Shown: piece after piece, positions 13,076 through 32,468 of the stretch
Layout: every line of letters begins with the position of its first letter
Position numbering within the stretch: position 1 is the stretch's first letter
DNA from: an uncultured Candidatus Peregrinibacteria bacterium
GTDB lineage: Bacteria > Patescibacteriota > Gracilibacteria > UBA1369 > LOWO2-01-FULL-3
DNA length: 32,788 nucleotides
Direction: 5' to 3'
Assembly (NCBI GenBank): GCA_903847465.1
Contig: CAINDQ010000096.1
Location: 1-32,788 of the forward strand
Made by a program: the position numbers and the translations under genes
Notes under the pieces: model-generated
Seen by the model: the letters and a program-made list of their open reading frames with translations, nothing else
What the model was told of the DNA's origin: nothing
The model's database searches: none

Positions 13076-13112
13076 CGGAGTAGTTTTCTTGAGACCTCAA
13101 ATCAATAAACTC

Positions 13113-13140
13113 AATCCGCTAAGAAAAGCGGATTTTTCTT
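13113..13140 (+). terminator. intrinsic terminator-like hairpin in the lysC leader (possible attenuator)
   Basis: AATCCGCT-AAGAAA-AGCGGATT followed by TTTCTT (TTTTTCTTT run overlapping the stem end). Confidence 0.75.
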
Positions 13141-13157
13141 TATATAACCCACCAAAA

Positions 13158-14480
13158 ATGACTCTCACAATCACAAAATTCGGAGGAACCTCTATGGGAA
13201 ATGCCTCTGCTATCTCTCAAACAGCTGCCATCATAAAGTCCACCAAAGGAAACAAAGCGGCAGTAGTTTCAGCAACCTCCGGCACAACGGATCAACTCCT
13301 AAATCTCGGAAATTTGGCCTTGAACAAGAAAGATTGGACCAAAGATTTTCAAGAATTAGTGTCAAAGCACGACAAGATAATTAAGGATTTAAAGATAAAA
13401 CTAGATTTGAAATTTTACTGGGAAACTGCCAGAAACATTTTGGAAGGAGTTACTCTGATTGGAGAACTTTCCATCAGCGCAAAGGATCGCCTAAGCACCA
13501 TCGGCGAAAGAACCAGTAGTCAAATATTGGCATCCTTACTGAATAAACAAGGCGTCAAAGCTCTTGCCATGGATGCTTATGAATTCGTTTACACCGACAA
13601 TAATTTTGGAGAAGGAAATGTTGATTTCCGAAAAACGGACAAAGCTATTTTGGAAAAAATTGGTAAAGTCATCAAAGCCAAAACCATTCCAATCATCACC
13701 GGCTTCATCGGCCAATCCGAAGATGGCAGATATATTACTTTGGGACGTGGAGGCAGTGACTATACCGGCGCCATTATTGGCGCAGCCTTGAACGCCACCG
13801 AAGTCCAAATCTGGACAGATGTAGATGGTGTTTTCAATACCGATCCCCGCCTCTGCAAAGAAGCAAAAGTCTTAGACGAATTATCCTTCAACGAAGCTGG
13901 GGAATTGGCTTATTTCGGAGCAAAAGTCATCCATCCAAAAACGATTAAACCAGCCATTCAGAAAAACATTCCGGTAAAGATTCTGAACACTTTTAATCCC
14001 TCTGCAAAAGGTACAGTCATCACCAACAAAGAAACCGATTCTCTAAAATCCGTCACCGCAAAAAAGAACATCAGCATCGTGAATATTTGCTCGGTAGGAA
14101 TGTTCAATGCCCATGGATTCTTATTCAAAATATTCGAAATTTTTGCCAGATACAAAATGGTTGTAGACGTAGTTTCCACTTCCGAAGTCAGTGTCTCCGT
14201 AACCGTCGATAAAGAATTAAACGAAGAATTAATTAAAGAATTAAAGAAATTCTCAACAGTCACCATCTACAAAAACATGGCAATAGTCTGTCTTGTTGGC
14301 AGTGGAATTCGCTCAAACACAAGCGTAATCGGCGAACTCTTCTCTTCCATCAAGAACTATGACGTAAGCATGATTTCCTTAGGCGCTTCCAAAAGAAACA
14401 TCACTTTTTTAGTAAAAGAAGAAGTCGCCACAGAAGTCGTGACCAAAGTTTTCCACACATTTTTTAATCACAAAAAATAA
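13158..14480 (+). CDS. lysC: aspartate kinase
   Basis: MTLTITKFGGTSMGNASA; GRGGSDYTGA; C-terminal ACT-like region. The ORF track's TTG start at 13089 would add a non-conserved N-terminus. Confidence 0.93.
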   Translation: MTLTITKFGGTSMGNASAISQTAAIIKSTKGNKAAVVSATSGTTDQLLNLGNLALNKKDWTKDFQELVSKHDKIIKDLKIKLDLKFYWETARNILEGVTLIGELSISAKDRLSTIGERTSSQILASLLNKQGVKALAMDAYEFVYTDNNFGEGNVDFRKTDKAILEKIGKVIKAKTIPIITGFIGQSEDGRYITLGRGGSDYTGAIIGAALNATEVQIWTDVDGVFNTDPRLCKEAKVLDELSFNEAGELAYFGAKVIHPKTIKPAIQKNIPVKILNTFNPSAKGTVITNKETDSLKSVTAKKNISIVNICSVGMFNAHGFLFKIFEIFARYKMVVDVVSTSEVSVSVTVDKELNEELIKELKKFSTVTIYKNMAIVCLVGSGIRSNTSVIGELFSSIKNYDVSMISLGASKRNITFLVKEEVATEVVTKVFHTFFNHKK

Positions 14481-14493
14481 CCATCCAAATAAT

Positions 14494-15495
14494 ATGAAAT
14501 CCAAAAATATTGTCATCGTAGGAGCAACAGGGGCAGTCGGCAGAGAAATGATTCTTTGTCTCAAAAAATGCCATTTTCCAGTAAAGAATTTGAGGCTCGT
14601 TGCTTCAGAAAAATCAGCAGGCCAAAAACTTGAAACACCATTTGGAAAAATCAAAATCGAGACCATTTCTGAAAAAGTTTTCGCCGAAAGCGACATTGCT
14701 TTATTCTCAGCAGGAAGCGGAATTAGCAAAGAATGGCGAGACTGCGTCGTGAAAAACAATTGTCTCATGATCGACAATTCTTCCGCCTTCAGATACGAAA
14801 AAGATACGCCGTTAGTCGTTCCTCAAATTAACCCAAAAGCCGCCCTCAAACACAAAGGCGTCATCAGTAATCCAAACTGCACCACGGCCATCGCCGCCAT
14901 GGCCCTTTGGCCACTTCACAAAGCTTTCGGACTCAAAAAAGTAATCGTCTCAACTTACCAAGCCACCTCTGGCGCAGGCGCCAAAGGCATGGACGAATTA
15001 CTTCAACAAACCAAGGAACATTTAGCCAACAAAAGACTCACCAAAAACATTTTCGCCCACCAGATCGCTTTCAACATCATCCCCCACATCGACACTTTCG
15101 AAAAAAATGGATATACAAGAGAGGAAATGAAGGTATCATGGGAGACGAAGAAGATCTTTGGAGATGAAAAAATATTGGTTTCTTGTACAGCAGTCAGAAT
15201 CCCGACCTTCAGAGCTCACAGCGAATCCATCGTCATTGAAACCGCAAAACCAATCACTCCTGAGAAAGCTAGAAAAGTACTCGAGAAAGCATCCGGTGTT
15301 GAAATAGTAGACGACACCCTAAGAAACAAGTACCCTATGCCACTAAACGCCTCAAACAAATTCGATGTAGAAGTAGGAAGAATCAGACAGAATCTCGTAT
15401 TTGGAAAAAATGGCTTGGAGTTTTTTGTGAGTGGAGATCAGTTATTGAGAGGCGCCGCTTTGAACGCCGTTGAAATCGCTAAACTATTCATTTAA
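14494..15495 (+). CDS. asd: aspartate-semialdehyde dehydrogenase
   Basis: IVGATGAVGREM, DNSSAFRYE, SNPNCTTAI active-site Cys. Confidence 0.94.
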   Translation: MKSKNIVIVGATGAVGREMILCLKKCHFPVKNLRLVASEKSAGQKLETPFGKIKIETISEKVFAESDIALFSAGSGISKEWRDCVVKNNCLMIDNSSAFRYEKDTPLVVPQINPKAALKHKGVISNPNCTTAIAAMALWPLHKAFGLKKVIVSTYQATSGAGAKGMDELLQQTKEHLANKRLTKNIFAHQIAFNIIPHIDTFEKNGYTREEMKVSWETKKIFGDEKILVSCTAVRIPTFRAHSESIVIETAKPITPEKARKVLEKASGVEIVDDTLRNKYPMPLNASNKFDVEVGRIRQNLVFGKNGLEFFVSGDQLLRGAALNAVEIAKLFI

Positions 15496-15506
15496 TCATT
15501 ATAAAC

Positions 15507-16250
15507 ATGAAAATAGCTTTGATCGGATTTGGTGGAATGGGCAAGACCCTGCACCGAATTGCCCAAGAACGCGGCCATGAAATTTCAATCATCATCGACC
15601 CAAAAGACCCCTCAGCAACTCATAAAACCTTGGTAGAAGCTGATTTGAAAACAGTCGATACAGTCATTGATTTTTCAAGCGCAGAAGCCATTTTAGACAA
15701 TATCAAAACTTGCCACGATTCAGGCACAAATCTAGTTGTCGGCACCACTGGTTGGTACGATAAAGTACCAACAATAAAAGATTCTTTGCAAGATAACGGA
15801 ATCGGATTTCTCTGGTCTTCCAATTTTTCTATCGGCGTAAATTTATACTTTGCCATCGTGGAAAAAGCCGCAAAATTGATCAATTCTTTCGACGAATATG
15901 ACGTTTGGGGCCACGAAATTCACCACTACAACAAAGCTGATTCCCCTTCCGGCACTGCAAAAACTCTCGAGAAAATTCTGCTTGATAATATTGGCAGAAA
16001 AACAGCCGTTGTGGAAGATCGCCTAAACCGCAGAAGAGAAGACAATGAAATTCATTTTTCGTCCGTTAGAGGTGGTTTGGTAAATTTCGGACACACCATC
16101 GGATTTGATTCTCCAGCTGATACAATCACCATTTCTCACAGTGCCAGAAACCGCGATGGATACGCTCTGGGAGCCATAAAAGCCGCTGAGTGGCTACAAG
16201 GTAAAAAAGGCTATTTTGAAATGAAAGATTTCCTAAATTTTAACTCCTAA
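15507..16250 (+). CDS. dapB: 4-hydroxy-tetrahydrodipicolinate reductase
   Basis: IGFGGMGKTLHRIA, VVGTTGW, EIHHYNKADSPSGTAKTL. Confidence 0.94.
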   Translation: MKIALIGFGGMGKTLHRIAQERGHEISIIIDPKDPSATHKTLVEADLKTVDTVIDFSSAEAILDNIKTCHDSGTNLVVGTTGWYDKVPTIKDSLQDNGIGFLWSSNFSIGVNLYFAIVEKAAKLINSFDEYDVWGHEIHHYNKADSPSGTAKTLEKILLDNIGRKTAVVEDRLNRRREDNEIHFSSVRGGLVNFGHTIGFDSPADTITISHSARNRDGYALGAIKAAEWLQGKKGYFEMKDFLNFNS

Positions 16251-16254
16251 AACT

Positions 16255-17139
16255 ATGAAAAGAAAATATGCAGGGACATGGACAGCCTTAATCACTCCCT
16301 TCAAAATTGATGGCAGTGTTGACTACGAAGCCCTCCGAAATTTAGTCAAAAAACAGATCGAAGGAGGTATTACCGGAATAGTTCCTATCGGCACAACAGG
16401 CGAATCTCCAACCATCGAACAAGAAGAAGCAAAGAAAATTTTTGAAACCATAGTAGAAGAAGCCAAAGGCAAAATCATGGTGATGGCTGGCACAGGAAGT
16501 AATTCCACAAAACACGCAGTCGAACATACAAAAATAGCAAAAGAAGCAGGAGTAGACGCTTGCCTCGTTGTTTGCCCTTATTACAACAAACCTACTCAGA
16601 ACGGCTTACGTCTGCATTTCCTGGAAATCGCCAAAGTAGGCCTCCCTGTAATCGTTTATAACATCAAAGGCCGCACCGGAATCAACATGACTACCGATAC
16701 GCTTATGATTCTCGCCGAAAATGAAATGATCGTCGGAGTCAAAGAAGCCAGTGGAGACATCAATCAAATGAAAGAAGTGATTGATCGCAGACCAGAAAAT
16801 TTCACCGTTTTGTCTGGAGATGATGGCTTAACTCTCGAACTAATAAAACTAGGCGGCGATGGCGTTGTGTCAGTCGCTTCAAATGTTATGCCAAAAGAAG
16901 TTTCGGCAATGGTTGAAAACGCTCTAGCCGGAAACACAGATCAGGCTGCCGAAATCAACGAGAACCTAAAATTACTCTTCAAAGATTTATTTATCGAAAC
17001 CAATCCAATTCCAGTAAAATATTGTGCTCACAAAATGGGACTTTGCGAACTTATTTATCGTTTACCAATGTGTCCTCCGTCAAATGAAGCAGGCAATATT
17101 CTCGATGAAACTTTAAAAACTTATAACCTTGTGAACTAA
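16255..17139 (+). CDS. dapA: 4-hydroxy-tetrahydrodipicolinate synthase
   Basis: GIVPIGTTGESPTI, VVCPYYNKPTQNGL, GVKEASGDINQM. Confidence 0.95.
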   Translation: MKRKYAGTWTALITPFKIDGSVDYEALRNLVKKQIEGGITGIVPIGTTGESPTIEQEEAKKIFETIVEEAKGKIMVMAGTGSNSTKHAVEHTKIAKEAGVDACLVVCPYYNKPTQNGLRLHFLEIAKVGLPVIVYNIKGRTGINMTTDTLMILAENEMIVGVKEASGDINQMKEVIDRRPENFTVLSGDDGLTLELIKLGGDGVVSVASNVMPKEVSAMVENALAGNTDQAAEINENLKLLFKDLFIETNPIPVKYCAHKMGLCELIYRLPMCPPSNEAGNILDETLKTYNLVN

Positions 17140-18380
17140 TGAACGAAGAAGTTTTGTATTTTCCAAAAGAAGACATCGTCAAAGCAACTGATCGATTTCA
17201 GACACCTTTCTTTTTGTATGAAGAAAAAAAACTACGCTCAAATTGTCAGATTTTCAGAGATTCCTTCAAGAAATACTTTCCTGATTTTTGGCCGCTGTAT
17301 GCCATAAAAGCAAACAACAACCCAGAAATACTTAAAATAATTTCATCCGAAGGATTCGGCGGAGATTGTTCCAGTGAATCAGAAGCTTGGATCTGTGAAA
17401 AATTAGGAATCGAAACAATGTATACCGGAAACTACACCACCAAAGAAGAGTTTGAATTCGTAAAAAACAAATGTCTGATTTTGAATCTCGATGACTTAAG
17501 CATGCTAGGTGCAGTCGCAGAACTCGGCATGCCGGAGACCTTATCTTTCAGAATAAATCCAGGTGTCGGAAAAGGTTTCAACAAAGATAACGTCTTTGCT
17601 GGACCAGACGCAAAATACGGAATTCCATTCGAAAAGGCTTATGAAGCCTATCAAAAAGCCAGAGATTTAGGAGTGAAACATTTCGGAATTCACATGATGA
17701 CAGGCACCAATGTGCCATTGGAAGAAAGTAATTATTTCGCCAACATCGTCGAAAAACTATTCGACATTATCGCAGATATAAAAGAAAAATCCGGCATCGA
17801 AATTGAATTTATGAATATCGGCGGAGGCTTTGGCGTTCCCTATCGCCCGGAAGAAAAAAGCCTCGACATGGACTTTGTGGCAAAAAGTATTCGCGAAGTT
17901 TTCGATAAAAAATGTAAAGAATTGAACTTGAAAGAACCAAGACTGCTTGCAGAACCTGGCAGATGGATCTCTGCAAACGCCGGATGGTTAATCGGGAAAG
18001 TTCACATCATCAAAGATTCTTACAAAAAATTCGTAGGCGTAGATTTCAGTAGTAACGACATGCCACGCCCCGCTATTTACGGAGCATATCATCACGTTTC
18101 AGTAATCAAAACCAAAGAAACAATTGAAAAAGAAACCGTCTCCATCGTTGGCAGAATCTGCGAAAACAGTGATCAGTTAGCCCGCGACAGAGAACTTCCA
18201 AAATTAGATATCGGCGATATTGTAGTCATTCACAATTGCGGAGGACACGCCTACACCATGGGCCATAATTACAATGGCCGTCTTCGTCGCGCCGAATATT
18301 TGATCGAAGAAAACGGCAATTTCCGAAAAATCCGCCGAGCCGAAACTATCGAAGATTTATACAAAACTTGCGAAATATAA
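17139..18380 (+). CDS. lysA: diaminopimelate decarboxylase
   Basis: YAIKANNNPEIL PLP-Lys motif, NIGGGFGVPY, EPGRW; overlaps the dapA stop. Confidence 0.9.
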   Translation: MNEEVLYFPKEDIVKATDRFQTPFFLYEEKKLRSNCQIFRDSFKKYFPDFWPLYAIKANNNPEILKIISSEGFGGDCSSESEAWICEKLGIETMYTGNYTTKEEFEFVKNKCLILNLDDLSMLGAVAELGMPETLSFRINPGVGKGFNKDNVFAGPDAKYGIPFEKAYEAYQKARDLGVKHFGIHMMTGTNVPLEESNYFANIVEKLFDIIADIKEKSGIEIEFMNIGGGFGVPYRPEEKSLDMDFVAKSIREVFDKKCKELNLKEPRLLAEPGRWISANAGWLIGKVHIIKDSYKKFVGVDFSSNDMPRPAIYGAYHHVSVIKTKETIEKETVSIVGRICENSDQLARDRELPKLDIGDIVVIHNCGGHAYTMGHNYNGRLRRAEYLIEENGNFRKIRRAETIEDLYKTCEI

Positions 18381-18391
18381 TAATAAAATTT

Positions 18392-19588
18392 ATGGATTTC
18401 AAAGCTTCTCAAAAATTAGAAAATTTGGCCCCATACGCCTTCAAAGAAATCAATGACCGTGTCACCGCCTTGAAAGAAAAAGGCATCACTCCAATCGATT
18501 TCGGAGTTGGTGATCCTTCTGATCCCACTCCTAATTTTGTGATAGAAGCCCTAAACAAAGGCGCTATCAAACATGCCAAAAGCGGCTATCCCAGCTATAT
18601 CGGCCTAAAAGAATTCCGCGAAGCCGCCGCCCAATATATGCAAAGAAGATTCAATGTTTCCCTAAATCCAGAAACCGAAATCACCTCAAACATCGGCTCC
18701 AAAGAAGCCATCTTCAATTTCCCACAAGCTTTCCTAGAGCAAGACGACTACGTCATAATCCCCTCTCCGGGGTATCCACCAATGAAAACCGGCACCACTT
18801 TTGCTGGAGGAAAATGTTACTTCACACCTCTTCTTGAAAAAAATAATTTCCTGATCGATTTCGAAAGCATCCCAAAAGAAATAGCAGAGAAAGCCAAAAT
18901 CATCTGGTTGAATTATCCAAATTCTCCAACAGGAGCAGTCGCCACCAAAGAATATTACAAAAAATTAATCGATTGGGCCCACACCCACAACATCATCATC
19001 GCCGCAGACGAAGGCTGTTATATCGACATCTACTTCGACGAAAAACCGCTCTCCATTCTCGAAGTAGCCAAAGAAGGCATCGTCGCCTTTTATTCTCTCA
19101 GCAAAAGAAACAACATGACTGGATATCGAGTTGGATTCGTTTGTGGAGATGAAAAATTAATCAGCATTTTCAAAAGACTGAAAACAAATATCGATTCCGG
19201 CACTCCAAATTTCATCCAAGAAGCCGCCATCGCCGCCCTCGACAACGACACTCACTGCCAAGAAATGTGCGCATCCTACAGCCAAAAAGCAGACATTCTC
19301 CTTGAAGCTCTAAAACAAATCGGCCTCGAAACTCACAAACCAAAAGCCACCTTCTACCTCTGGCAAAAAGTCCCAACAGGGATGTCAGATATCGAATTTG
19401 CCAAAAGACTTCTCTCTCCAGAAATCGGAATCGTTGTTACTCCTGGCAGTCTCATCTCCGATAAATGTGATGACGGAATCAACCCTGGCGAAAATTATGT
19501 AAGATTTGCATTGGTACCATCCATAGAAGAAGTCAAGTTGGCTTCCCAGCTGCTAATTGACAACCAAAAAAAGATAGAGCTACAATAA
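18392..19588 (+). CDS. dapL: class I aminotransferase, LL-diaminopimelate aminotransferase-like
   Basis: FGVGDPSDPTPNFVIEAL, LNYPNSPTGA, SLSKRNNMTGYRVGF PLP motif; last gene of the DAP operon. Substrate inferred from context. Confidence 0.78.
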   Translation: MDFKASQKLENLAPYAFKEINDRVTALKEKGITPIDFGVGDPSDPTPNFVIEALNKGAIKHAKSGYPSYIGLKEFREAAAQYMQRRFNVSLNPETEITSNIGSKEAIFNFPQAFLEQDDYVIIPSPGYPPMKTGTTFAGGKCYFTPLLEKNNFLIDFESIPKEIAEKAKIIWLNYPNSPTGAVATKEYYKKLIDWAHTHNIIIAADEGCYIDIYFDEKPLSILEVAKEGIVAFYSLSKRNNMTGYRVGFVCGDEKLISIFKRLKTNIDSGTPNFIQEAAIAALDNDTHCQEMCASYSQKADILLEALKQIGLETHKPKATFYLWQKVPTGMSDIEFAKRLLSPEIGIVVTPGSLISDKCDDGINPGENYVRFALVPSIEEVKLASQLLIDNQKKIELQ

Positions 19589-20057: not shown

Positions 20058-21713
20058 CTACTGCACGCCATCTAGATAACAATTCTCACAATAAATTACT
20101 TCCAATCTTTTTGGAGAATAACTGGTTTTTATATTTTCCCCACACTTTGCACATTTCCTATCCCATAGGAAACCGGGATTTCGCAAACCAATCCTTTCCG
20201 CATATCTACAATCCGGACATTTTCTAGGCACAGAAATATTCATCTTCTTATAAAACTTGAGCTCGTTCGGTTGAATTTTGTAATTTTTTCCACATTCGCC
20301 ACAGGCCAAAGTCTCCATACAAAATTTCTCTTCAATCGTATTTGTATCATCTGGAATTTCGCATGTGGCAGGCATATATTCCTTGTTCTCTTTTTGTTTC
20401 CAACGGAATCCTTTTGAAATAGCTTCTTGTTCCGTCATCGGAAAATGATCCTTTGCCGCAGTTTCATTGTAAGCAAATTGTGAATTTTCTTTTGGAAAAA
20501 ATTTCCCCCATTCTGTACTCAGCCCGCCGGAGGAGGGCACCTTTTTCATATGAGCAACTATCTTTGCCCGAAGAACTTTATATTCCTCCTCTGAATATTT
20601 CTTATTAAAAATACTGAAATTCGCATTTTTTAATCCCACGCATCCGAACAAATCTCTCGAATTAAAACAAAGATCATTATAGAAACTATCATGACTGTGC
20701 GACACAAAAGTATTGAACGCACAATTGTTCAATCGCTCTACTCCAAGCCCTTCGTAGACCCATTCGCTATACCCCATTCCATACACATCACAACAATCAT
20801 GACTATTAAAAATCCAAGTACAATAAGAACAATCCTGCACTTCATATGAATCGAAACACTGATGGCAATTCTTTCCATTGATCAAATAATCTCCCGTACA
20901 ATTTTCCGTATTGAAATTTCGACTCGCACGATGCGGCAAATCTTTTGTCCATTGCAAAAAGTAATCTCGCGCATTCACAAATTTGCTATACTTGTTAAAT
21001 TCCAAAACAGCCTTCTTTGCCTCATATTCCTCTTTCGTACTTTGTTTGTTCATAATCCAGTATTGCTTATTCCTGAGCCCAAAACAGCCAATACAATCAT
21101 GGCAACCGATACAGTCATAACAGAACATTAAGTCGTTAGAATTCTGACAACTCTGACAACCAATACAGTTATAAAGTTTCGTGCTATCGATACAATCGTA
21201 GCAAAGTTCACAATGTTGCAAATAACTGCCATCATAAGAACTGCGCACCCTATTTGAATGAGTCAGATACATCGAATCCTCGCACTCCTCAATCACCACA
21301 CTTAGATAACAATTCTTACTGTCATAAGCTTGTTGGCAATATTCACTATTCGTTGGATTTACATTAAACAATCCGATTCTTGGCACTCTTTTCTGCAACT
21401 CCGCAAACTGTTCAAAGAACCCACGACTGAAATCAAAATCCATTCCATACTCAAAACCGTCATGTTTATCACTCCACCATTCTTCCGCTGAATAAACAGG
21501 AAAAACCGCATCTTCCGAATAAATCGAAACTATTTGTTTTCCAGATAAACTACTTTTCCTTTTATAAAAAGTCCTTTCGTTACGAAAACAAAGTTTGTTT
21601 TGCAGCCTACAATCAGGACAAATTTCAGGATTTGGCGCATCAAACTTTTTATAATAAGCCTCATCCTCTTTTCTGATTTCAAATTGTTTCTCGCAATTTT
21701 TACAATTAACCAT
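20058..21713 (-). CDS. Cys-rich protein, paralog of 23257..24912 (CPR 'caib/baif'-type annotation)
   Basis: 551 aa, about 39 Cys by hand count; Zn-ribbon-like CKNC..CPDC and CGEC..CPDC pairs, CxxC runs, repeated LRNKxYxxxNKQxSxEEYE motif. Confidence 0.8.
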   Translation of the reverse strand: MVNCKNCEKQFEIRKEDEAYYKKFDAPNPEICPDCRLQNKLCFRNERTFYKRKSSLSGKQIVSIYSEDAVFPVYSAEEWWSDKHDGFEYGMDFDFSRGFFEQFAELQKRVPRIGLFNVNPTNSEYCQQAYDSKNCYLSVVIEECEDSMYLTHSNRVRSSYDGSYLQHCELCYDCIDSTKLYNCIGCQSCQNSNDLMFCYDCIGCHDCIGCFGLRNKQYWIMNKQSTKEEYEAKKAVLEFNKYSKFVNARDYFLQWTKDLPHRASRNFNTENCTGDYLINGKNCHQCFDSYEVQDCSYCTWIFNSHDCCDVYGMGYSEWVYEGLGVERLNNCAFNTFVSHSHDSFYNDLCFNSRDLFGCVGLKNANFSIFNKKYSEEEYKVLRAKIVAHMKKVPSSGGLSTEWGKFFPKENSQFAYNETAAKDHFPMTEQEAISKGFRWKQKENKEYMPATCEIPDDTNTIEEKFCMETLACGECGKNYKIQPNELKFYKKMNISVPRKCPDCRYAERIGLRNPGFLWDRKCAKCGENIKTSYSPKRLEVIYCENCYLDGVQ

Positions 21714-21829: not shown

Positions 21830-23254
21830 ATGACCATCCAAGAATTAACCCAAACTCTAAATTCTCATCAACTCGCTTATGTGAATTTGGAGCTGAAAAA
21901 TCCACAGAATGGCGAATATATGTTGTGTGCTTTTCATTTAATTCCAGGCGGAACTCTTAATATTCTCCAAGCAGCATGTGAAGTTTCCGCAGAATCATCT
22001 ACTGGTACAAATTTCTTGGTAAACACCGAAACTCCTTTTTCAAAAGAGATGAACGCTTTAGTTTACCAAGTTGATTTGGAAAAAAGCATCGTTTATATCG
22101 CCTACCCAACTAGACTTTTTGATCGTAATGGAAATATTCAGAATATTCTTACCTACATTGTCGGTAACGTTTTGGGCATGAAAGAAATCAACGCTTTGAA
22201 ATTACTCGATGTTTGGTTTCCACCAGCAATGCTAGAACAATATGACGGCCCTTCTTATACCATCGACGACATGAGAAAATATCTAAATGTTTATGGCAGA
22301 CCTATTTTGGGCACTATCATCAAACCAAAGATGGGACTTACTTCTGCTGAATATGCTGAAGTGTGTTATGACTTCTGGACCGGTGGTGGAGATTTCGTAA
22401 AGAATGATGAACCACAAGCAGATCAGGATTTCTGCCCATACGACAAAATGGTTTTACACGTAAAAGAAGCCATGGATAAATCCGTAAAGGAAACTGGCAA
22501 AAAGAAAGTTCACTCTTTCAATGTCTCCGCAGCAGATTACGAGACGATGATTAAAAGATGTGAAATGATTAAAAATGCCGGATTCGAACCAGGCAGTTAC
22601 GCTTTCCTGATTGACGGAACAACCGCTGGTTGGATGGCCGTCCAAACTCTTCGCCGAAAATATCCAGACGTATTCATCCATTTTCATAGAGCAGGTCACG
22701 GAGCTTTCACCAGAAAAGAAAATCCAATTGGTTTCACCGTATTAATTCTTTCCAAATTCGCCAGACTTGCTGGTGCTTCCGGTATCCACACAGGAACTGC
22801 AGGCGTTGGAAAAATGGCTGGCAGTCCAGAAGATGATATCACCGCAGCTCATGGCATTTTGTATTTCGCCTCTCAAGGACATATCTTTCACCAATCTTGG
22901 GCAACTATTCCTGAAAAAGATGAAAACGCCGAAGGTCTCACCAAAGAATCTGCCGCAAATCATGAAATTTTGCATGACGACAGTTGGAGAGGAATCAAAA
23001 AATGCTGCCCAATTATTTCAGGCGGCTTAAATCCTACCTTGCTAAAACCATTTATAGACGTGATGGGAAACACCGACTTCATCACCACTATGGGAGCTGG
23101 TTGCCATGCTCATCCAAAGGGAACAAAAGCAGGAGCAACAGCCTTAGTTCAATCTTGCGAAGCTTATTTGAAAGGAATGGATATCCACGAATACGCCAAA
23201 GATCACGTTGAACTAGCCGAAGCAATCGAATTCTTCGAGAAAAAGAAGAAGTAG
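21830..23254 (+). CDS. rbcL: ribulose-bisphosphate carboxylase, form II/III-like
   Basis: IIKPKMGL, GGDFVKNDEPQ (carbamylated Lys motif), HFHRAGHGAFTR, HTGTAGVGKMAG (loop 6 Lys), ISGGLNP. Confidence 0.95.
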   Translation: MTIQELTQTLNSHQLAYVNLELKNPQNGEYMLCAFHLIPGGTLNILQAACEVSAESSTGTNFLVNTETPFSKEMNALVYQVDLEKSIVYIAYPTRLFDRNGNIQNILTYIVGNVLGMKEINALKLLDVWFPPAMLEQYDGPSYTIDDMRKYLNVYGRPILGTIIKPKMGLTSAEYAEVCYDFWTGGGDFVKNDEPQADQDFCPYDKMVLHVKEAMDKSVKETGKKKVHSFNVSAADYETMIKRCEMIKNAGFEPGSYAFLIDGTTAGWMAVQTLRRKYPDVFIHFHRAGHGAFTRKENPIGFTVLILSKFARLAGASGIHTGTAGVGKMAGSPEDDITAAHGILYFASQGHIFHQSWATIPEKDENAEGLTKESAANHEILHDDSWRGIKKCCPIISGGLNPTLLKPFIDVMGNTDFITTMGAGCHAHPKGTKAGATALVQSCEAYLKGMDIHEYAKDHVELAEAIEFFEKKKK

Positions 23255-23256
23255 GA

Positions 23257-24912
23257 TTACTTTATAAATTTCAGATATTCCTCTTCAGACAAAATCCTTC
23301 CGTCGTACTCTTTTGGCCAATTTGTCTGAATTTTCTCGCCTGATTTTGCACAAACTGCATCACGAAGTTCACCATTAAAAGGCATCTGCGCAAAATTATC
23401 CTGCAGACGATGAACATAGTAATCATGAGGCAATGGCCCTTTTATTTTCTTAGCAAACTCAATATCACTTTTGGTAACCTGAAAAGATCTCTTATATTTT
23501 TCATCCCAAAAAATCTGCTCGGTTAGCCATTTTTCTTTTTCAGGACTTAAGTCATTATAAGTATCTGGAATCATCTCGATTTCAGCAGTTTTAACATTTT
23601 TTCTTTCCACCGGTCCTCCCTCTCTAAAGCCAAAATCCTCCGGCTTATCAATCGGAAAATGAAATCCGGAAAAACTTTCCTCATAAGGATTCGGAGCAAA
23701 GTAACCAGGGAAAAACTTCCCCCATTCGCCAGCATTCTTCATCTGTAAAACTATTTTTTCACGCAAAATTTCATATTCTTTCTCAGAGTATTGTTTATTG
23801 AAAATACAATATTTTTTATTCACCAAACCACAACAACCAAAACAATAATGGCAATTTTGGAGATAAGCTGAGTATTCCACAAATCTACAGTGGGCAACGC
23901 TAAAAGAGAAAATCGCATAATAAGAAAAAACCGGCAGAGAAGTCATAAAAGTCAGCTCACCACCAACCGTTCCCAGAGAATCTAAAGTTGCCTTAGCGTC
24001 AGGTCCGGAAAAACAATCGTTAGCACAATTTTCATGTTTTGAAAGCAGATAGCAATTCTCACAGTTCTTGCATTGTCTAATAAAATTACCAGAAGAATCT
24101 TCACACTGCTCAATCTGCAAAGCCCTATGCCATGCCGTATCTAACATCATTTTACTAAAAAATTCTTTTGCCTTCTCGTAAGCTTTTCTGGATGTAAAAT
24201 CCCACATCGCCTTCTGTTCCTCAAATTCTTCTTTTGAAAGCTGTTTGTTCCCAAAGCAATAACTCTTATTGCGAAGATTAAAACAAAAAAGACAATTACT
24301 ACAATCACGACAATCATACATAAAGGCGGAATCACTCACCATTTTGCAATTCAATAAAAATAAACTATTAAAACAGTTCGCAGAATTTATCAGATCAAAA
24401 CATAATTCTGAATAATAAGCGGAAACACCATAGTGAGCATTCTTACAATGATCGCATTCATAACAATAGGTACAATCCTCACAATATTGACCTGAATGGC
24501 AAAGGTAACAATTTTTACTGTAATACCAATCATCGGTATATTCGCAATTATGATTATGACTCTCAAAAACATGTGGTATTGGACATTTTTGAAACAATTC
24601 CCAAGCTTGCTCAAAAAAACCTCTAGAAGGATCGAAATCTCTCGATGGCGGATTACTATTTTCGAACCATTCTTTCCTTTTCCAGACAGGATAAACACAA
24701 TCCGGACGGAAAACAGAAATGATCTGCTCGCCAGTTTTGTCACATTTTCTCTTATGCAAATTCCACTGCGGCCAAAAAGCCCCTAACTCTCGGAATCTAT
24801 ATTTCGGCGTAACATTCGGCAAACTATCACCAAACCCAAACTTCTCTCGAAGCTTCATTTCAAGCTCAGAAACCTCAAATTTTTGACCCGAAATACTACA
24901 AATACTTTGCAT
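23257..24912 (-). CDS. Cys-rich protein, paralog of 20058..21713
   Basis: 551 aa; shares SRGFFEQ, NLRNKSYCFGNKQLSKEEFEEQK and CGLVNKKYCIFNKQYSEKEYEILREKI with its paralog. Confidence 0.8.
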   Translation of the reverse strand: MQSICSISGQKFEVSELEMKLREKFGFGDSLPNVTPKYRFRELGAFWPQWNLHKRKCDKTGEQIISVFRPDCVYPVWKRKEWFENSNPPSRDFDPSRGFFEQAWELFQKCPIPHVFESHNHNCEYTDDWYYSKNCYLCHSGQYCEDCTYCYECDHCKNAHYGVSAYYSELCFDLINSANCFNSLFLLNCKMVSDSAFMYDCRDCSNCLFCFNLRNKSYCFGNKQLSKEEFEEQKAMWDFTSRKAYEKAKEFFSKMMLDTAWHRALQIEQCEDSSGNFIRQCKNCENCYLLSKHENCANDCFSGPDAKATLDSLGTVGGELTFMTSLPVFSYYAIFSFSVAHCRFVEYSAYLQNCHYCFGCCGLVNKKYCIFNKQYSEKEYEILREKIVLQMKNAGEWGKFFPGYFAPNPYEESFSGFHFPIDKPEDFGFREGGPVERKNVKTAEIEMIPDTYNDLSPEKEKWLTEQIFWDEKYKRSFQVTKSDIEFAKKIKGPLPHDYYVHRLQDNFAQMPFNGELRDAVCAKSGEKIQTNWPKEYDGRILSEEEYLKFIK

Positions 24913-24958
24913 GCCCTGATTATATGCTTTTTCAGCGCATGGTTAAGCCCTAAACTCC

Positions 24959-24987
24959 TTGACAAACAACCATTTTTAATGCAAAAT
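24959..24987 (+). promoter_or_regulatory. promoter of giant sigma-like gene 1 (duplicated element)
   Basis: TTGACA, 17-nt spacer, CAAAAT; closely matched upstream of gene 2. Confidence 0.65.
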
Positions 24988-25015
24988 ACCACGCTAGTTT
25001 TTAAAAGATGACTTG

Positions 25016-28000
25016 ATGGGAGAATTTGGCCCCGATTCGTATTCTCAATTTGAGGATACTGATCCAACAAACAGGGAGGAAACTTTTGATGCAAAGGATA
25101 TTTCTGCAAATTTCAGGCAGCTTCCATCTGCGCCATCAACGCAAGATTCAGATGAAAATCCAGCCGCAGATCCTGATTTAGATTCAGATTCAAACACGAC
25201 TTTTTGCCAAGACCAGCCTGTTTCGACCACAGATTCCTTCTCCCCTTCAAGCGCTCCAGACGAATCTCCGCAATTCCAAGCCCTAAAATGGATAAACAAA
25301 ATCATTGCCCCTGGCAGCAAAAGATCAAGATTTCTCCTCTTTCTTGCAACTAAATTAGATCATCCATTTACCGCAGAAGAAGTTTGCGCTGGAACCGGCC
25401 TAACACATCGGGAGATCTCTAACATTGCTATTCAATTAGAACAAATATTGGCTAAAAATTACCAACCATTTGTCATCAATCCAATAGCTCCTTATTGTTT
25501 AAAAGTAAATCCTTTTGGGCCTACCGAAACCCCTCCAGATCCAAATCCAGATATTGAATATTCTGACCAAGAAAAAGCATTAGCAGTAGCCTGGACAAAT
25601 ACTCATGCAAAAGAAAAAAAAGAAGGATTCACTAAATCAATAATGCTTCTGTTGGCTCAAAATTTAGGGAAAGCCCTAAGTATTACAGAAATTGCCAAAA
25701 CCATAGGTCAGTCTGAACAAAAAACAGGAATGAAGCTAGGCTCATTATCGCAAAAAGCATATATAAATTCTCCTTATTCCTTAGAAACTTTTAGAAAATC
25801 AGGAAAATGGCGTCTGACCATAAATCAAAATAAAACTGTTGAAGATTTTACAGATATTGAATATTCAGCCAAAGACAAAAAAGAAGCTAACGATTGGTTT
25901 GAAGAAAATCTTACACAACAACACCAGCAAAAAAAACTTGCCCAGATTTTAACAAAAAATATGGGCAAATTCACAAAGCTAAGTGATCTCTGCAAAAAAA
26001 TATCAGATCTAAATCCAATTTACATCTCAAATTTAGCGAGAGTATTGGAATTAAATCTTAAAAGAATGAAGGCCCCATATCGTGTCGAAAAATTATATGC
26101 CCAATATAGAATAATTAGAACAGATTCAAAACCGGAAACAGACGAAGAAACAGCCACAAAAACCCCGGAAGCAATCCCTCAAACTCCAGCGACAGAATGG
26201 ATCACAAAACTTTTTAATCCAACCAGTAAAAGAGCTAAATTATTATTCTTTCTTGCGTCCAGATTAGATACTCCAACCACAGCGGAAGAAATTTGTGCAG
26301 GAACAGGGCTAAGTAAAACTTCAGTTTACAACTGCGCACGAGATATTCAAAAAATACTTGAAGGATACTCACATCCTTTTGTCTTTATAAACCAAGCCCC
26401 TTATTTGCTAAAAGCTAACCCGGAATACGATGAAGAATTCGCCCTAAATCCGGACATAAAATATACCGATGCACAAAAGTTAACAGCCATTGCTTGGTCT
26501 AAAACTCACTGGGAAACAGGATATTCGAAAAAAATAGCAATCTTCTTAGCCCAAAATCTTGGAACGACCGTAACAATTGATCAAGTTGCAAAAGCTGTAA
26601 ACAAAAGTCATAAACAAGTTGGGCTTGTTTTGGGAAACTTAGCTTGCGGAAAATATAAAGATTCCCCTTATGAATTAACTTCTTACAACCGAACTGGAAA
26701 ATGGCGTTTAACCATTAGGGAAAATCAACCTGTCCCAGAATTTTCCGATATACCATACAACGACCTCGATAAAAAAGAAGCTGCTGAATGGAGCACTTCA
26801 AATCTCTCGAGAGCAAGACTGCAAGAACTATCGGCAATTTTCATTGAGCATATGGGTAGTTTTATTACTCCAGACGACGTCGAAAAAGTTATGACAAGTC
26901 TAAAAAGAACATCAATAACCAGCCTTGTCTCAGATTTGGCCTCCACTTTTGAACAAATGAAAGCTCCCTATCAAATCGAAAAACTTCACGGTAAATATCG
27001 ACTGATTAAAACAGTCCCAACTCTCAATGAGACTTCAGAATATAACACTTGGTTTACAGCCCTTACTCATCCGGCAACAATCACCTACGCAATATTAGAA
27101 TTGATTGGTGAAAACAAACCAAGAACAACTTTTCAAATAGCTGACATAGTTACCACTTTAAATGAAAGAACCACCAAAGATGACCCGATAAAAGAAAACA
27201 TCAATGAAAAAAGAGTCACAAAAGCTCTGGAAAGACTCGCCAAAAGCCTACCAGAAAATAGTCCATACCAAGTAACTGGAAGTCAGGAAAAAGGCTATCA
27301 AATCATAAGAACACCTCTCTCTGAAAAACCATCAAATAAAGAAGTTTCCCTTATCCCTGTAGAAGAAGAAGTTGCTCCCCCAAAGTTAGCACCTCGCCCT
27401 CGATATGTTTCCCGCGCAGGTGGCCAAATATACGATGCCTTAAATCGTGAAATAAACCAGCTTCCCCGACTAAGTCATGAAGAAAATGTTAGACTCAGAA
27501 TGCTTGCCGGACCAATCGGCGATGACGTAGAAGAAACCGATTTAACAAATCTGGCAGCCTTTGAAGAATTGGTGATGGGAAATTTTAGACTCATTCGAGT
27601 AATCGCAAATATATTTGTAAAAGGATTTACACGAATGTCTTATGAGGATTTTGTGACTATAGGATATTTGGGACTAAGAAGAGGTTGCCTAAGATTTGAT
27701 CCTGAAAAAGGCAAACTCGTTACCATAGCTTGTCATCATATCAGACAAAAAATGGGTAGAGCAAATAACAGAACAAAAAGTGATGTCGTAATTGAACTCA
27801 AAGCATTAACTGGCATTAATATAATTGACAGAGCCGAAACTCAATTAAAAGAATCCGGACAAGCAGTCACTCGCGAAAATATTGCAGCAATCACAGGAAA
27901 AACTGCTGCTCAAGTTGAACAACTACAATTGTTGGCTTTGCCGGCTTTTAGCTTTGACAACAGTGACCGAAAACGTGAAAATGGCACAAAAGTTCTATCT

Positions 28001-29026
28001 CCAGACCGAAAAATTGCGAATCAAACAGATACTATAGAAGAATTGACCAGATCCACCCATGAAAATTATTTATTAAAAGAATTATATCGAGCCTTCTGCC
28101 AAATTCTCGGGATTAAAACATCAAGACAAATCCCCCTCTCAAAGGTAAGAAGCGAAGCGATGGCAGAAATTTTTAACATTCACGGAAAAACCAAGAAAGA
28201 AATTCTATTAAGAAGAGATTTATATATTTACATGCGAAACGCTGGATTAGAAATTCTATACGCAGGTGCTGATGGAACCTCTTGGGGCTCAACTTCAGGT
28301 GAAGATATAGGCGAAGATGTCGGATTGAGTCGTGAAAGAGTCAGTCAAATTGTGGCCAAAATTTTCGAAGGAATTCGTGAAGCATTAGAAGCAAATAAGA
28401 TTGCCATTCCTACTATTGAAGCCCTGGAAGCAATCGGAGAAAAACCCGGAACACTCAATGGAAGAAAACAGATCAAGGCAGCGGTAAATGCAGCCTTGGA
28501 AGAAGATACAGAGGCTCAAGATGATACCGACGATGCCGAAGACACCACCGACACCGCTGACATAGTGATTACCGACGAAACAGAAACTCCATTAACAAAA
28601 TTAGCCCCAATCAGAAAAAAAGATCTACGTCCATCTCTCAAAGCATCTCCGACTTTTGAAGCCTGGAAAAAAGAGATTCTAGGCAAAACCAACCATCCAA
28701 TTATTGCAAAAACTATCTTAAACAACCTTGGAGGACTTCCTGCAGGTGAAAAAAGCACTCCCGACAGGATCGTTCAAGTCTTAAGAATGAAAGAAAAATA
28801 TGAAAATCTGGTTCTAAATAAAACAGACCAAGAACTCCTCACCGACATCTTAACAACATTATCTGGAATTGAAGGCTTACAGTCAGATTCGTTTGAATTA
28901 ACATTCGAACGCGACAGCTCGGAATTCTGGGTCATAGACAATTCAACAATCACGGTATCCGACGATTCCCCTGAAACCATTCAGGAAACAATTTCAAATG
29001 AACTGATTCAAGCAGTGGGCGTTTAA
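25016..29026 (+). CDS. giant sigma-70-like protein with serial winged-helix-like modules (copy 1)
   Basis: About 1336 aa from ATG 25016; region 2-like EELVMGNFRLIRVIANIF...DFVTIGYLGLRRGCLRFDPEKGKLVTI, region 4-like EDIGEDVGLSRERVSQIVAKIFEGIREAL; two N-terminal approx. 300-aa repeats. Confidence 0.8.
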   Translation: MGEFGPDSYSQFEDTDPTNREETFDAKDISANFRQLPSAPSTQDSDENPAADPDLDSDSNTTFCQDQPVSTTDSFSPSSAPDESPQFQALKWINKIIAPGSKRSRFLLFLATKLDHPFTAEEVCAGTGLTHREISNIAIQLEQILAKNYQPFVINPIAPYCLKVNPFGPTETPPDPNPDIEYSDQEKALAVAWTNTHAKEKKEGFTKSIMLLLAQNLGKALSITEIAKTIGQSEQKTGMKLGSLSQKAYINSPYSLETFRKSGKWRLTINQNKTVEDFTDIEYSAKDKKEANDWFEENLTQQHQQKKLAQILTKNMGKFTKLSDLCKKISDLNPIYISNLARVLELNLKRMKAPYRVEKLYAQYRIIRTDSKPETDEETATKTPEAIPQTPATEWITKLFNPTSKRAKLLFFLASRLDTPTTAEEICAGTGLSKTSVYNCARDIQKILEGYSHPFVFINQAPYLLKANPEYDEEFALNPDIKYTDAQKLTAIAWSKTHWETGYSKKIAIFLAQNLGTTVTIDQVAKAVNKSHKQVGLVLGNLACGKYKDSPYELTSYNRTGKWRLTIRENQPVPEFSDIPYNDLDKKEAAEWSTSNLSRARLQELSAIFIEHMGSFITPDDVEKVMTSLKRTSITSLVSDLASTFEQMKAPYQIEKLHGKYRLIKTVPTLNETSEYNTWFTALTHPATITYAILELIGENKPRTTFQIADIVTTLNERTTKDDPIKENINEKRVTKALERLAKSLPENSPYQVTGSQEKGYQIIRTPLSEKPSNKEVSLIPVEEEVAPPKLAPRPRYVSRAGGQIYDALNREINQLPRLSHEENVRLRMLAGPIGDDVEETDLTNLAAFEELVMGNFRLIRVIANIFVKGFTRMSYEDFVTIGYLGLRRGCLRFDPEKGKLVTIACHHIRQKMGRANNRTKSDVVIELKALTGINIIDRAETQLKESGQAVTRENIAAITGKTAAQVEQLQLLALPAFSFDNSDRKRENGTKVLSPDRKIANQTDTIEELTRSTHENYLLKELYRAFCQILGIKTSRQIPLSKVRSEAMAEIFNIHGKTKKEILLRRDLYIYMRNAGLEILYAGADGTSWGSTSGEDIGEDVGLSRERVSQIVAKIFEGIREALEANKIAIPTIEALEAIGEKPGTLNGRKQIKAAVNAALEEDTEAQDDTDDAEDTTDTADIVITDETETPLTKLAPIRKKDLRPSLKASPTFEAWKKEILGKTNHPIIAKTILNNLGGLPAGEKSTPDRIVQVLRMKEKYENLVLNKTDQELLTDILTTLSGIEGLQSDSFELTFERDSSEFWVIDNSTITVSDDSPETIQETISNELIQAVGV
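25280..26130 (+). repeat. internal protein-coding repeat A1 of sigma-like gene 1
   Basis: KWINKIIAPGSKRSRFLLFLATKLDHPFTAEEVCAGTGL...APYRVEKLYAQYRIIRT aligns with A2. Confidence 0.8.
26189..27015 (+). repeat. internal protein-coding repeat A2 of sigma-like gene 1
   Basis: EWITKLFNPTSKRAKLLFFLASRLDTPTTAEEICAGTGL...APYQIEKLHGKYRLIKT; more similar to the gene 2 repeat than A1 is. Confidence 0.8.
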
Positions 29027-29048
29027 GCTTATTTAAGCTCAAAGACGC

Positions 29049-29077
29049 TTGACAAACGGCCGTTTTTGATGCAAAAT
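29049..29077 (+). promoter_or_regulatory. promoter of giant sigma-like gene 2 (duplicated element)
   Basis: TTGACA, 17-nt spacer, CAAAAT; spacer contains the palindrome AAACGGCCGTTT. Confidence 0.65.
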
Positions 29078-29105
29078 ACTACGCTAGTTTTTAAAGGATG
29101 ACTCA

Positions 29106-32100
29106 ATGGCAGAATTTGGCCCAGATTTGTATCCTGAAATAGAGGATGCTGATCTACCAATTAGCGCAGAATCATGTGATACAGAAGACATTTCTGCAAA
29201 TTGCAGACAGTTTCCGTCTGCCCCAGCAACGCAAGCTCCAGATATAAATCCAGCCGCAGATCATGATTTAGATGCATATTCAAACACGACTTTTTTCCAA
29301 GATCAGCCTATTTCAGTAAGCGCTTCCACCTCTCCCCTAGCTTCAACCGCAGATTCCTCTGCCCCACCAGACTCTCCGGAAGAATCCCTACAAGAAAAAG
29401 CCGTAAAATGGATTACCAATATTTTCAATCCAACCAGACACAAAGCCAAATTATTACTATTCCTTTCTGCCAGATTAAATACCCCAACCACCATAGAGGA
29501 AATTTGCGCAACAATGAAAATGAATAAAAAAGCTGTCCACAAATGCGGTTATGAAATTCATTTAACCCTTAAAGACCAAACCCATCCATTCATTTTCATA
29601 AGCAACCCTACTTATCTTCTCAAACCCAATCCAGCTTGCACAAAAGAAGACACCAAAAATCCAGATATAAAATATACTGAAGCACAAAAATCAAGCGCAA
29701 TTGCTTGGGCAGAAACTCATTTCACCAAGAGCTGCCTTTCAAAAGAAATAGCAATTTTCCTAGCAAATAATCTTGGATCTACTATAACCGTTGCTCAAGT
29801 AGCGAAGGCTCTCCATAGAACTTATGAAGAAATAAAGCCAATGCTAAAAGAGATAGCTTACACAAAATACAAGAATTCCCCATATCAATTACTAGCCTAC
29901 AATAAAATGGGGAATTGGCGTTTAATCATCAGAGAAAATCAACCTATTCAGGAATTTTCCGATATCCCCTACGAGAACCAAGACAAAACCAAAGCCGCCG
30001 AATGGGTTACTTCCTGTATCACAAGTCCAAGGCTACAAGAACTTTTGGCAATATTGATAGAAAATATGGGAAGTTTTATCACCACAGATATTATTGGGGA
30101 AAAAATCACAAACTTATCAAAAAAATCCCTTGCTAACCTTGTTTTAGCCTTGACTGAAAAACTTAAACAAATAAATGCCCCCTATCAAATAGAAAAACTA
30201 ATTGCTCAATATCGATTGGTGAAAATTTTAGGATTGGAACCTCTGCCAAGTATGCCAGAATCGGAACATTTCACTTCAGAAGCCATAGATTTTACCTATC
30301 CGGATCTAGAAACCCTCCCAAGCATCGCAGAACCGGCACATATTACTTCAGAAGCCATGGATTCTACCTATCCGGATCTAGAACCTTTGCCAAATATCAT
30401 CCAGCCGGACTATCCACCACTTGAACATTCAGACTATCTTTTTGCAGAAGAAATCCCTCTGAATGGAATACCGGAATACTTCGAATGGCATACACGCCTC
30501 ACTCCTCCATTTACACTCACCTACAAAATTCTGGAATATATGGGAGAGAAAAAAGCGTATTCAACTTTTAAAGCAGCAGATCTCTCAGCAGTTTTGGCCG
30601 AAAAAAACACCGAAACCAACGTTGCCCAAATCACTCCAACAAATGTCGAGAGAGCTTTAATCAGACTCGCGACTTGTCTCACGCACACAAGTCCCTACCA
30701 AATAACCGGAACCCCTGAGGCAGGATTTCAAATAGAGAAAAATTACCTTTCAGATAGACCAGTGCCTATAGAAATTGAGGAAGATTTGCTAGTTCCATTG
30801 GGAGATGAGCCTCTCGCAAAACCAAGCCTCCCTGCTCAATTCATTCCCCATGCCGGAGGGAGTATTGAAAAAGCTCTAGATTATGAAATAAATCAAATTC
30901 CGGAGATGAGCCACGAAGACAATATCAGACTTAGAATTCTTGCCGGACCAATAGGACCGAACTTAAAAGAAAGCGATCTCACAAATCCCACCGCCTTTGA
31001 AGAATTAGTGATGGGAAATTTTAGACTAATTCGATATTTCTCAAAAGCGCTAGCAAAAAAAGCTCCTCATATATCAGAAGGAGATCTTGTATCTGCAGGA
31101 TGGGAAGGCCTAAGGATAGGTTGTCTAAGATTTGACCCCTCAAGAGGCAGTCTTTCTACAATAACCAGTTGGTGGATCCAACAAAAAATGCATAGAGCCA
31201 TCAACAAAACGAAAACTGATGTCAGACGCGGATTACATGTGTGGTCCGATATAAGGAGAATGCAAAAAGCCATAGCCCACCTACAACACAATGGCATTCC
31301 TACAACACGTGAAAATATAGGAAAAGTTATTGGCAAATCCGTCGAACAGGTAGAAAGATTGCAGATAGCCGAAAAATCACCTGCAAGCCTAGATGGCAGT
31401 AACCATAAGAAAGCAGATGGTGACGACATTTCGCCACTTGGACAAAGACTCTCAGACGGTTCTGATGAGTTTGGAGATTTGGACAGATCAAAACATGAGA
31501 CTTATTTATTAAAAGAATTATATCGAGCATTCTGTACTATCCTTGGCATTTCAACCTCAAAAAGAATTCCTCTCGCCGAAGCAAGAGCTAGAGTATTGGC
31601 AGAAATTTTCGACATTCAAGAGAAAAATAAAAGCGAAATTAGATTAAGAAGAGATCTGTACATATATCTTCGTCGAACCGGAATCGACATGCTCACGGCA
31701 GACGCCGACCAAACCGGGACACTAGAAGACGTAGGAAGAGAAGTTGGTCTCACTCGAGAAAGTCCACGCCAAATCGAGTTAAAAATTTACCCACTAATTC
31801 GCAGGGCTTTGCATACCAATAAAGTAGTAATTCCTAGCTTAGAAGAATTACGCACCGCAGAAACAGATCCTGAAAAAATAGCATCAGATACAAACAAATT
31901 GGTTGGAGCAACCGCTACTATTCTTCTCCTTTCCGATTTGGAAGCTGAAACCGATCCCGAGGAATCTCCAGAACCAGAAGTTGCAGAAACAGAAATAACC
32001 AAGTTAAGAAAAACGGACCTCAGACCACCTCTTAACGCCGCTAAAATTGAATTTGCAGCTTGGAAAAAAGAGATTGTCGCCAGCGCAACTCACCCCGTCA

Positions 32101-32468
32101 TTGCCAACACTATCTTGATAAATCTCGGAGGTCTACCAGCCGGAGAAAAAGGAACAACCGACAAAATTCTCCAATTATTGAGATTCAAAGAACAGTATGA
32201 AAAGTCCCCGCTCAACAAAACAAATCAACAACTTTTAACGGAGATTGAAGCAACTTTAATTGAAATCGAAAATCACAAATCAAATTCCTTTGCCTTAACC
32301 TTTGATCGTGACAGAGCGGAATTCCAAATTGCCAACCTCAACCCAATCAACACAGAATCAACCTCCGTGATAGCCCCAATCTCCCTATCCACAATATTAG
32401 TCACTACAGAAGAAGCCGTTCAAAAAGCAACCACCCGCCAAGAACGAACCTCTGAACAAGTCGCCTAA
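29106..32468 (+). CDS. giant sigma-70-like protein with winged-helix-like modules (copy 2)
   Basis: 1120 aa; EELVMGNFRLIRYFSKALAKK..GDLVSAGWEGLRIGCLRFDPSRGSLSTITSWWIQQKM; EDVGREVGLTRESPRQIELKIYPLIRRAL. Confidence 0.82.
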   Translation: MAEFGPDLYPEIEDADLPISAESCDTEDISANCRQFPSAPATQAPDINPAADHDLDAYSNTTFFQDQPISVSASTSPLASTADSSAPPDSPEESLQEKAVKWITNIFNPTRHKAKLLLFLSARLNTPTTIEEICATMKMNKKAVHKCGYEIHLTLKDQTHPFIFISNPTYLLKPNPACTKEDTKNPDIKYTEAQKSSAIAWAETHFTKSCLSKEIAIFLANNLGSTITVAQVAKALHRTYEEIKPMLKEIAYTKYKNSPYQLLAYNKMGNWRLIIRENQPIQEFSDIPYENQDKTKAAEWVTSCITSPRLQELLAILIENMGSFITTDIIGEKITNLSKKSLANLVLALTEKLKQINAPYQIEKLIAQYRLVKILGLEPLPSMPESEHFTSEAIDFTYPDLETLPSIAEPAHITSEAMDSTYPDLEPLPNIIQPDYPPLEHSDYLFAEEIPLNGIPEYFEWHTRLTPPFTLTYKILEYMGEKKAYSTFKAADLSAVLAEKNTETNVAQITPTNVERALIRLATCLTHTSPYQITGTPEAGFQIEKNYLSDRPVPIEIEEDLLVPLGDEPLAKPSLPAQFIPHAGGSIEKALDYEINQIPEMSHEDNIRLRILAGPIGPNLKESDLTNPTAFEELVMGNFRLIRYFSKALAKKAPHISEGDLVSAGWEGLRIGCLRFDPSRGSLSTITSWWIQQKMHRAINKTKTDVRRGLHVWSDIRRMQKAIAHLQHNGIPTTRENIGKVIGKSVEQVERLQIAEKSPASLDGSNHKKADGDDISPLGQRLSDGSDEFGDLDRSKHETYLLKELYRAFCTILGISTSKRIPLAEARARVLAEIFDIQEKNKSEIRLRRDLYIYLRRTGIDMLTADADQTGTLEDVGREVGLTRESPRQIELKIYPLIRRALHTNKVVIPSLEELRTAETDPEKIASDTNKLVGATATILLLSDLEAETDPEESPEPEVAETEITKLRKTDLRPPLNAAKIEFAAWKKEIVASATHPVIANTILINLGGLPAGEKGTTDKILQLLRFKEQYEKSPLNKTNQQLLTEIEATLIEIENHKSNSFALTFDRDRAEFQIANLNPINTESTSVIAPISLSTILVTTEEAVQKATTRQERTSEQVA
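30237..30400 (+). repeat. 72-bp in-frame tandem repeat, about 2.3 copies, in sigma-like gene 2
   Basis: Units start at 30237, 30309 and 30381: E(P/T)LPS(M/I)..(E/A)H(F/I)TSEA(I/M)D(F/S)TYPDL. Confidence 0.85.

Follow-up and report, generated by a model that had tools for sequence, protein, structure and literature searches.

Tandem σ70-family paralogs with putative winged-helix arrays in a Peregrinibacteria genome differ at the region 2.3 tryptophan dyad

The 32,788-nucleotide stretch of DNA analyzed here (the window) contains two adjacent genes whose products resemble σ70-family factors, and the first of them carries two histidines where the second keeps the tryptophan dyad of σ region 2.3. 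Considering that the dyad acts in promoter melting, the locus raises the question of what these two proteins are, and whether they have divided the work of opening DNA between them, as had been proposed in an earlier, sequence-only reading of the window. Copy 1 (25016..29026, + strand) encodes a protein of 1336 aa and copy 2 (29106..32468, + strand) one of 1120 aa, and both reading frames are unbroken over their 1336 and 1120 codons, respectively. We took the ATG at 25016 as the start of copy 1, which aligns with the ATG at 29106 of copy 2, and counted the residues of copy 1 from it; the listed ORF starts at a TTG at 25013. In each protein an array of putative winged helices (seven units in copy 1 and four in copy 2) is followed by σ70 regions 2 to 4 and a C-terminal domain.

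We analyzed the dyad position in both copies. The CATCAT at 27734–27739 is in frame in the 25016–29026 ORF and encodes His907-His908 of copy 1, and the TGGTGG at 31170–31175 encodes Trp689-Trp690 of copy 2 in the 29106–32468 ORF. The two copies align without gaps in region 2.3. phmmer, used independently to align copy 1 with solved RpoS structures, places the histidines on the two RpoS tryptophans, and in an alignment with the RpoD of E. coli MG1655 they occupy the W433/W434 column. The codons, the paralog alignment and the comparisons with RpoS and RpoD thus bear out the earlier placement of the histidines at the dyad. All six adjacent bases of the two codons differ between the copies, indicating that His-His is not a single-base or sequencing slip. 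The accompanying statement that copy 2 matches the canonical FSTYATWWIRQAI was incorrect: copy 2 reads SLSTITSWWIQQKM, which keeps the two tryptophans but is missing Y425, F427, Y430 and R436.

The dyad is the established melting wedge, as the earlier reading had stated; it is invariant in primary σ factors, where W256 and W257 were found in 100% of 1002 sequences, and is not conserved in alternative σ factors (PMC4593229). Because of this invariance, copy 1 is not a primary σ factor. At positions 433/434, where primary (group 1) σ factors have the dyad, copy 1 has His-His, and copy 2 has Trp-Trp but has lost other conserved residues. In σ32 the dyad reads HW, and H107, at the W433 position, is the melting wedge; dyad swaps ranked in activity as WW > HW > QR (PMC10216364). 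Since histidine is a working wedge in σ32, His-His predicts that melting by copy 1 is weaker rather than absent. The interpretation given in the earlier reading finds only partial support. In our alignment table, E. coli FliA has QR and RpoE has WL at the dyad columns, and additional σ factors from the same order as the window carry HW (G030), WH (G041), and HK and SV (G048). We know of no characterized His-His dyad. His-His is unusual as a pair, yet it is of a known type of dyad variation in alternative σ factors. A pattern search of 273 genomes for His-His in region 2.3 context returned a single match, in a non-σ reading frame with stops; the pattern required an aromatic or similar residue at position 430, so that it would overlook copy 1 itself too.

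The σ core as a whole was then compared with known σ factors. Both copies pass as members of the σ70 family, with regions 2, 3 and 4 homologous and in order. NCBIfam RpoS/RpoD models match both, and phmmer searches against solved σ factors gave E values of 1.9e-11 and 1.1e-15 for copies 1 and 2, respectively. Region 3 of copy 1 (27815..27988, + strand) scored above the cut-off of the Pfam Sigma70_r3 model (32.4 bits); most other single regions, including region 3 of copy 2 (31266..31418, + strand), scored below their Pfam cut-offs, but they are collinear and supported by phmmer. Region 2 (27557..27766 in copy 1 and 30990..31211 in copy 2, + strand) is among the better conserved parts, with 57% amino acid identity between the copies, and region 2.1, AFEELVMGNFRLIR in both, is identical at 14 of 14 positions. 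Residues N383, R385, D403, G408, F419, T429, Q437 and R441 are kept in both copies. Also common to both are the deletion of Y425, the substitutions F427L and Y430I, and the region 2.2 losses Q406T/S, E407I/A, N409Y/W and M413R. The extended region 4.1 and region 4.2 span 28040..28399 in copy 1 and 31488..31820 in copy 2 (+ strand). Copy 1 reads LSRERVSQIV there, with serine in place of R588 and RERVSQ in region 4.2; copy 2 reads LTRESPRQIE, where RESPRQ brings a proline into the recognition helix. Beyond region 4, both copies have a conserved C-terminal domain (28595..28951 in copy 1 and 31998..32351 in copy 2, + strand). The AlphaFold model of the σ core, with a pLDDT of 39.5, was too poor for use.

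These losses bear on binding to RNA polymerase as well as on melting. From mutant studies, binding to the core is known to depend on residues of region 2.2, among them Q406 and E407. In σ32, the contacts to the β′ clamp helices are made by D77, E81, I84 and M87 (PMC10216364), which in our alignment correspond to σ70 D403, E407, I410 and M413. Of these four, D403 alone is unchanged in both copies; the equivalents of E81 and M87 are replaced by I/A and R in both, and that of I84 is lost in copy 2 too. Since most of the clamp-helix contacts are lost in both copies, it may be that neither binds core RNA polymerase. Copy 2 shares the melting-pocket and core-binding losses and thus, judged by its sequence, is not a normal melter either. 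The proposal that copy 2 melts promoters and copy 1 does not was consequently not upheld, as the losses at Y430, F427, Y425 and the core-binding positions of region 2.2 are common to both.

Among characterized proteins, the primary and group 1–2 σ70 factors (RpoD/RpoS) gave the best family-model and solved-structure matches, and the copies resemble them in the order of regions 2, 3 and 4 and, for copy 2, in the WW dyad. Unlike RpoD and RpoS, copy 1 is without WW, both copies have lost Y430, F427, Q406 and E407, and both carry an extended region 4.1, a winged-helix array and the C-terminal domain in proteins of 1120–1336 aa. σ32 (RpoH) shares with copy 1 the histidine wedge at the W433 position (H107; PMC10216364) and a leucine at 427, but it keeps W108 at 434, where copy 1 has histidine, retains the E81 and M87 contacts that both copies have lost, and has no winged-helix array. 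An RpoH identity was rejected for copy 1, which scored 28.6 bits against a cut-off of 323.1 and has His, not Trp, as the second dyad residue. MzaA, the σ-like protein of the MZA anti-phage system, is also a long protein with a match to σ regions 2–3 (NCBIfam, 57.6 bits for copy 2). This candidate was likewise rejected: the cut-off of the model is 800 bits, PADLOC gave 20.8 and 45.4 bits over the σ core only, and no MZA partner genes were detected among the window genes scanned.

We next consider the part of each protein that lies ahead of the σ core. Copy 1 contains two units of three winged helices each (25262..26122 and 26153..27010, + strand) and copy 2 contains one (29361..30224, + strand), and each protein has one further, σ-proximal winged helix (27023..27325 in copy 1 and 30459..30764 in copy 2, + strand), which gives the count of seven versus four. 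The first unit of copy 1 was modelled with a mean pLDDT of 81.9 and has an HHH-EE pattern repeated three times. With the array model, Foldseek matched single units to the winged helices of ScpB and SaeR at 2–2.7 Å and returned no match at E ≤ 0.001; we therefore claim no array homolog of known structure. From its sequence pattern we infer that the σ-proximal unit, which is of the THxxTLTY type, is a winged helix as well.

Of the 353 genomes of the class, exactly three carry the σ-proximal winged helix, namely the window's own genome, G071 and G072. In the window's own genome it is also present in a 704-aa σ factor on another contig (G000:C106), and G071 and G072 each contain a tandem pair of σ factors (630 and 609 aa in G071; 633 and 607 aa in G072). 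Homology of this unit across the family was supported by hhalign (probability 90.9, P 1.1e-6). The extended region 4.1 ahead of region 4.2 is likewise found in G000:C106, G071 and G072 as well as in both window copies, which thus have the two features of the family, a THxxTLTY-type winged helix ahead of the σ core and an extended region 4.1. They differ from these relatives in two respects. The five nearest homologs (G000:C106 and two each from G071 and G072) all keep WW, Y430 and Q406, and in G071 and G072 the winged-helix-repeat array is a separate gene adjoining the σ pair (63% identical between the two genomes), whereas in the window it is fused. The separate array gene is related to the window array by hhalign (88.3, P 2.9e-6). 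Array searches of the order (89 genomes, with one sequence), the class (353 genomes, with a profile) and a sample of the phylum (380 genomes) matched only an array fragment at the end of a contig, G033:C65 (hhalign 97.1 to the window array), and, at chance level, a Clp-type ATPase of G640. Searches of the 353 class genomes, the 380-genome phylum sample, and genome and viral contig collections turned up no ortholog of either fusion, and our literature search found nothing on winged-helix σ fusions in these bacteria. At the sequence level, these comparisons show that the pair are tandem paralogs of a lineage-restricted σ70-family protein in which putative winged-helix arrays are fused ahead of a strongly diverged core. 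In G071 and G072, the conserved trio of two winged-helix σ factors and a σ-less winged-helix array lies between secDF and priA (loci L109, 6048–12001, and L110, 4550–10522).

To place the dyad change in the history of the pair, we compared the copies with each other and with their homologs. Protein identity between the paralogs is 50%, and 43% of four-fold degenerate sites (89/206) are identical; the retention of protein identity against diverged four-fold sites indicates that both copies have been under selection since the duplication. In the tree the copies pair as sisters with support of 100/100. The stem that they share measures 4.36 changes per column, and the branches beyond it measure 1.01 (copy 1) and 0.69 (copy 2). 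Branches of this length make the placement of the copies among other σ factors unsure. The long shared stem implies that most of the divergence precedes the dyad change and is common to both copies. Because the five close homologs all have WW, this dyad is most simply ancestral, and His-His would most simply have arisen on the copy 1 branch, after the duplication.

Each gene has a putative σ70-type promoter, TTGACA-17-CAAAAT, with conserved sequence downstream (24959..24998 for copy 1 and 29049..29088 for copy 2, + strand). These two blocks are the only ones in the genome, no third copy being found within three mismatches. The 5′ regions 24958–25018 and 29048–29108 are identical at 53 of 61 positions up to the start codon, compared with 16 of 50 just upstream, so that the similarity has a sharp edge at the −35 box. 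Overall, the promoter scan found no more sites than expected by chance (17 versus 16.7), and the promoter assignment therefore rests on conservation and not on the scan. Within the first 66 codons, 34 of 40 identical residues are encoded by identical codons, compared with 246 of 457 in the rest of the genes (Fisher P 9e-5). This likeness of the 5′ ends suggests gene conversion or a constraint on the 5′ end or leader. The near-identical promoters suggest that both copies are probably made together, and possibly that they regulate themselves.

The assembly that contains the window (G000) comprises 159 contigs, with a completeness of 95.85%; gene content and small genomes point to a Patescibacteria-type lineage. 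We did not find in it the RpoD typical of its relatives, which is 80–86% identical among most of the same-family genomes compared. Its only group 1-like σ factor, the 704-aa winged-helix protein on C106, shares about 38% identity with the RpoD of the relatives. The lack of a standard RpoD in G000 could reflect either a missing contig or a replacement. Mis-binning of the window's contig was considered but appears unlikely: its H+-PPase shares 79–83% identity with the enzymes of six same-family genomes, and its tetranucleotide use fits the other contigs, so that the contig probably belongs to the genome, although the H+-PPase of a same-genus genome, G001, is only 50% identical to it. Elsewhere in the window, two paralogous 551-aa Cys-rich, zinc-ribbon-like proteins (20058–21713 and 23257–24912, − strand) flank a RuBisCO large-chain gene (21830–23254), and a homolog of them lies near the winged-helix array fragment in G033. 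Positions 13089–19588 hold a compact lysine/diaminopimelate run (aspartate kinase, asd, dapB, dapA, lysA and a DapL-like aminotransferase), notable in a small genome.

How might such proteins act? The reading that we prefer, and to which we give about an even chance, is that the copies are array-steered alternative σ factors or σ-derived regulators, copy 1 having a His wedge. The winged-helix array would find promoters, whereas the σ2 domain, with its altered clamp-helix contact and weakened −10 base-flipping pocket, would be a poor DNA opener alone. In copy 1, the histidine at the W433 position would form a weaker wedge, like His107 of σ32, so that DNA melting by copy 1 would call for a better promoter or for its own array. 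The position of His-His on the WW dyad, the σ matches, the modelled array, the family features, the tree, the signs of selection, the His wedge of σ32 and the non-WW dyads of the order are consistent with this reading; the lost clamp contacts, the region 4.2 proline of copy 2 and the replacement of W434 as well in copy 1 count against it. More tentatively, though still as a serious competitor, the proteins may be σ-derived regulators that do not initiate transcription, the core forming no productive holoenzyme in either copy, the arrays doing the work, and copy 1 having drifted further. The loss from both copies of Q406, E407, N409, M413, Y430 and F427, which are mostly kept in the other σ factors compared, points in this direction, as do the very long shared stem, the proline of copy 2 and the presence of many more winged helices than σ domains. 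By contrast, the conservation of region 2 between the copies (57%, with region 2.1 unchanged) and the retention of N383, R385, D403, G408, F419, T429, Q437 and R441 suggest that the σ2 fold still works on the core or on the −10 strand.

The division of labor put forward in the sequence-only reading, in which copy 2 is a normal melter and copy 1 is non-melting or differently specific, appears unlikely, as does the competition at shared promoters that could follow from it. In its favor are the WW versus HH difference at six of six bases and the near-identical promoters, from which the copies are probably co-produced. Against it, the remaining losses in the melting pocket and at core-binding positions are found in copy 2 as well, and histidine is a working wedge in σ32. 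With so many other key sites changed in both copies, the dyad difference alone is no proof of split jobs. We also consider it quite unlikely that the pair, with its matching promoters, forms a self-contained switch, in which the array would pick the site, the WW copy would help to open it, and the HH copy would occupy it unopened as a dominant-negative partner. It is highly improbable that copy 1 is decaying as a duplicate or that His-His is an assembly error: the copy 1 branch is indeed ~1.5 times as long as that of copy 2, but the frame is open over 1336 codons, protein identity has been retained against strongly diverged silent sites, the promoter is conserved, and six adjacent base differences are no sequencing slip.

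On the preferred reading of array-steered σ factors or regulators, a σ core fused to up to seven winged helices would, in these small-genome bacteria, leave promoter choice to a separate DNA-reading array instead of the −10/−35 readers. The separate array gene and WW σ pair of G071 and G072 make a particular order of events testable, namely that the array was fused, the σ2 contacts were then lost, and the dyad was finally lost in one copy. By itself, the changed dyad adds modestly to the known dyad variation of alternative σ factors; specialists should find more of interest in the fused winged helices and in the lost core-binding residues.

Two loci in other genomes of the order were also observed. 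G048:C66 (L111, 5815–14028) contains five σ-like genes on one strand, encoding about 321, 578, 240, 1021 and 326–336 aa, with the dyads WW, WW, SV, WW (plus a second partial σ domain with FR) and HK, in that order. G041:C11 (L039, 696–5261) encodes a 1522-aa protein with a C-terminal σ70 core, a WH dyad and ~1200 aa without a Pfam match, and a chaperonin gene lies downstream of it.
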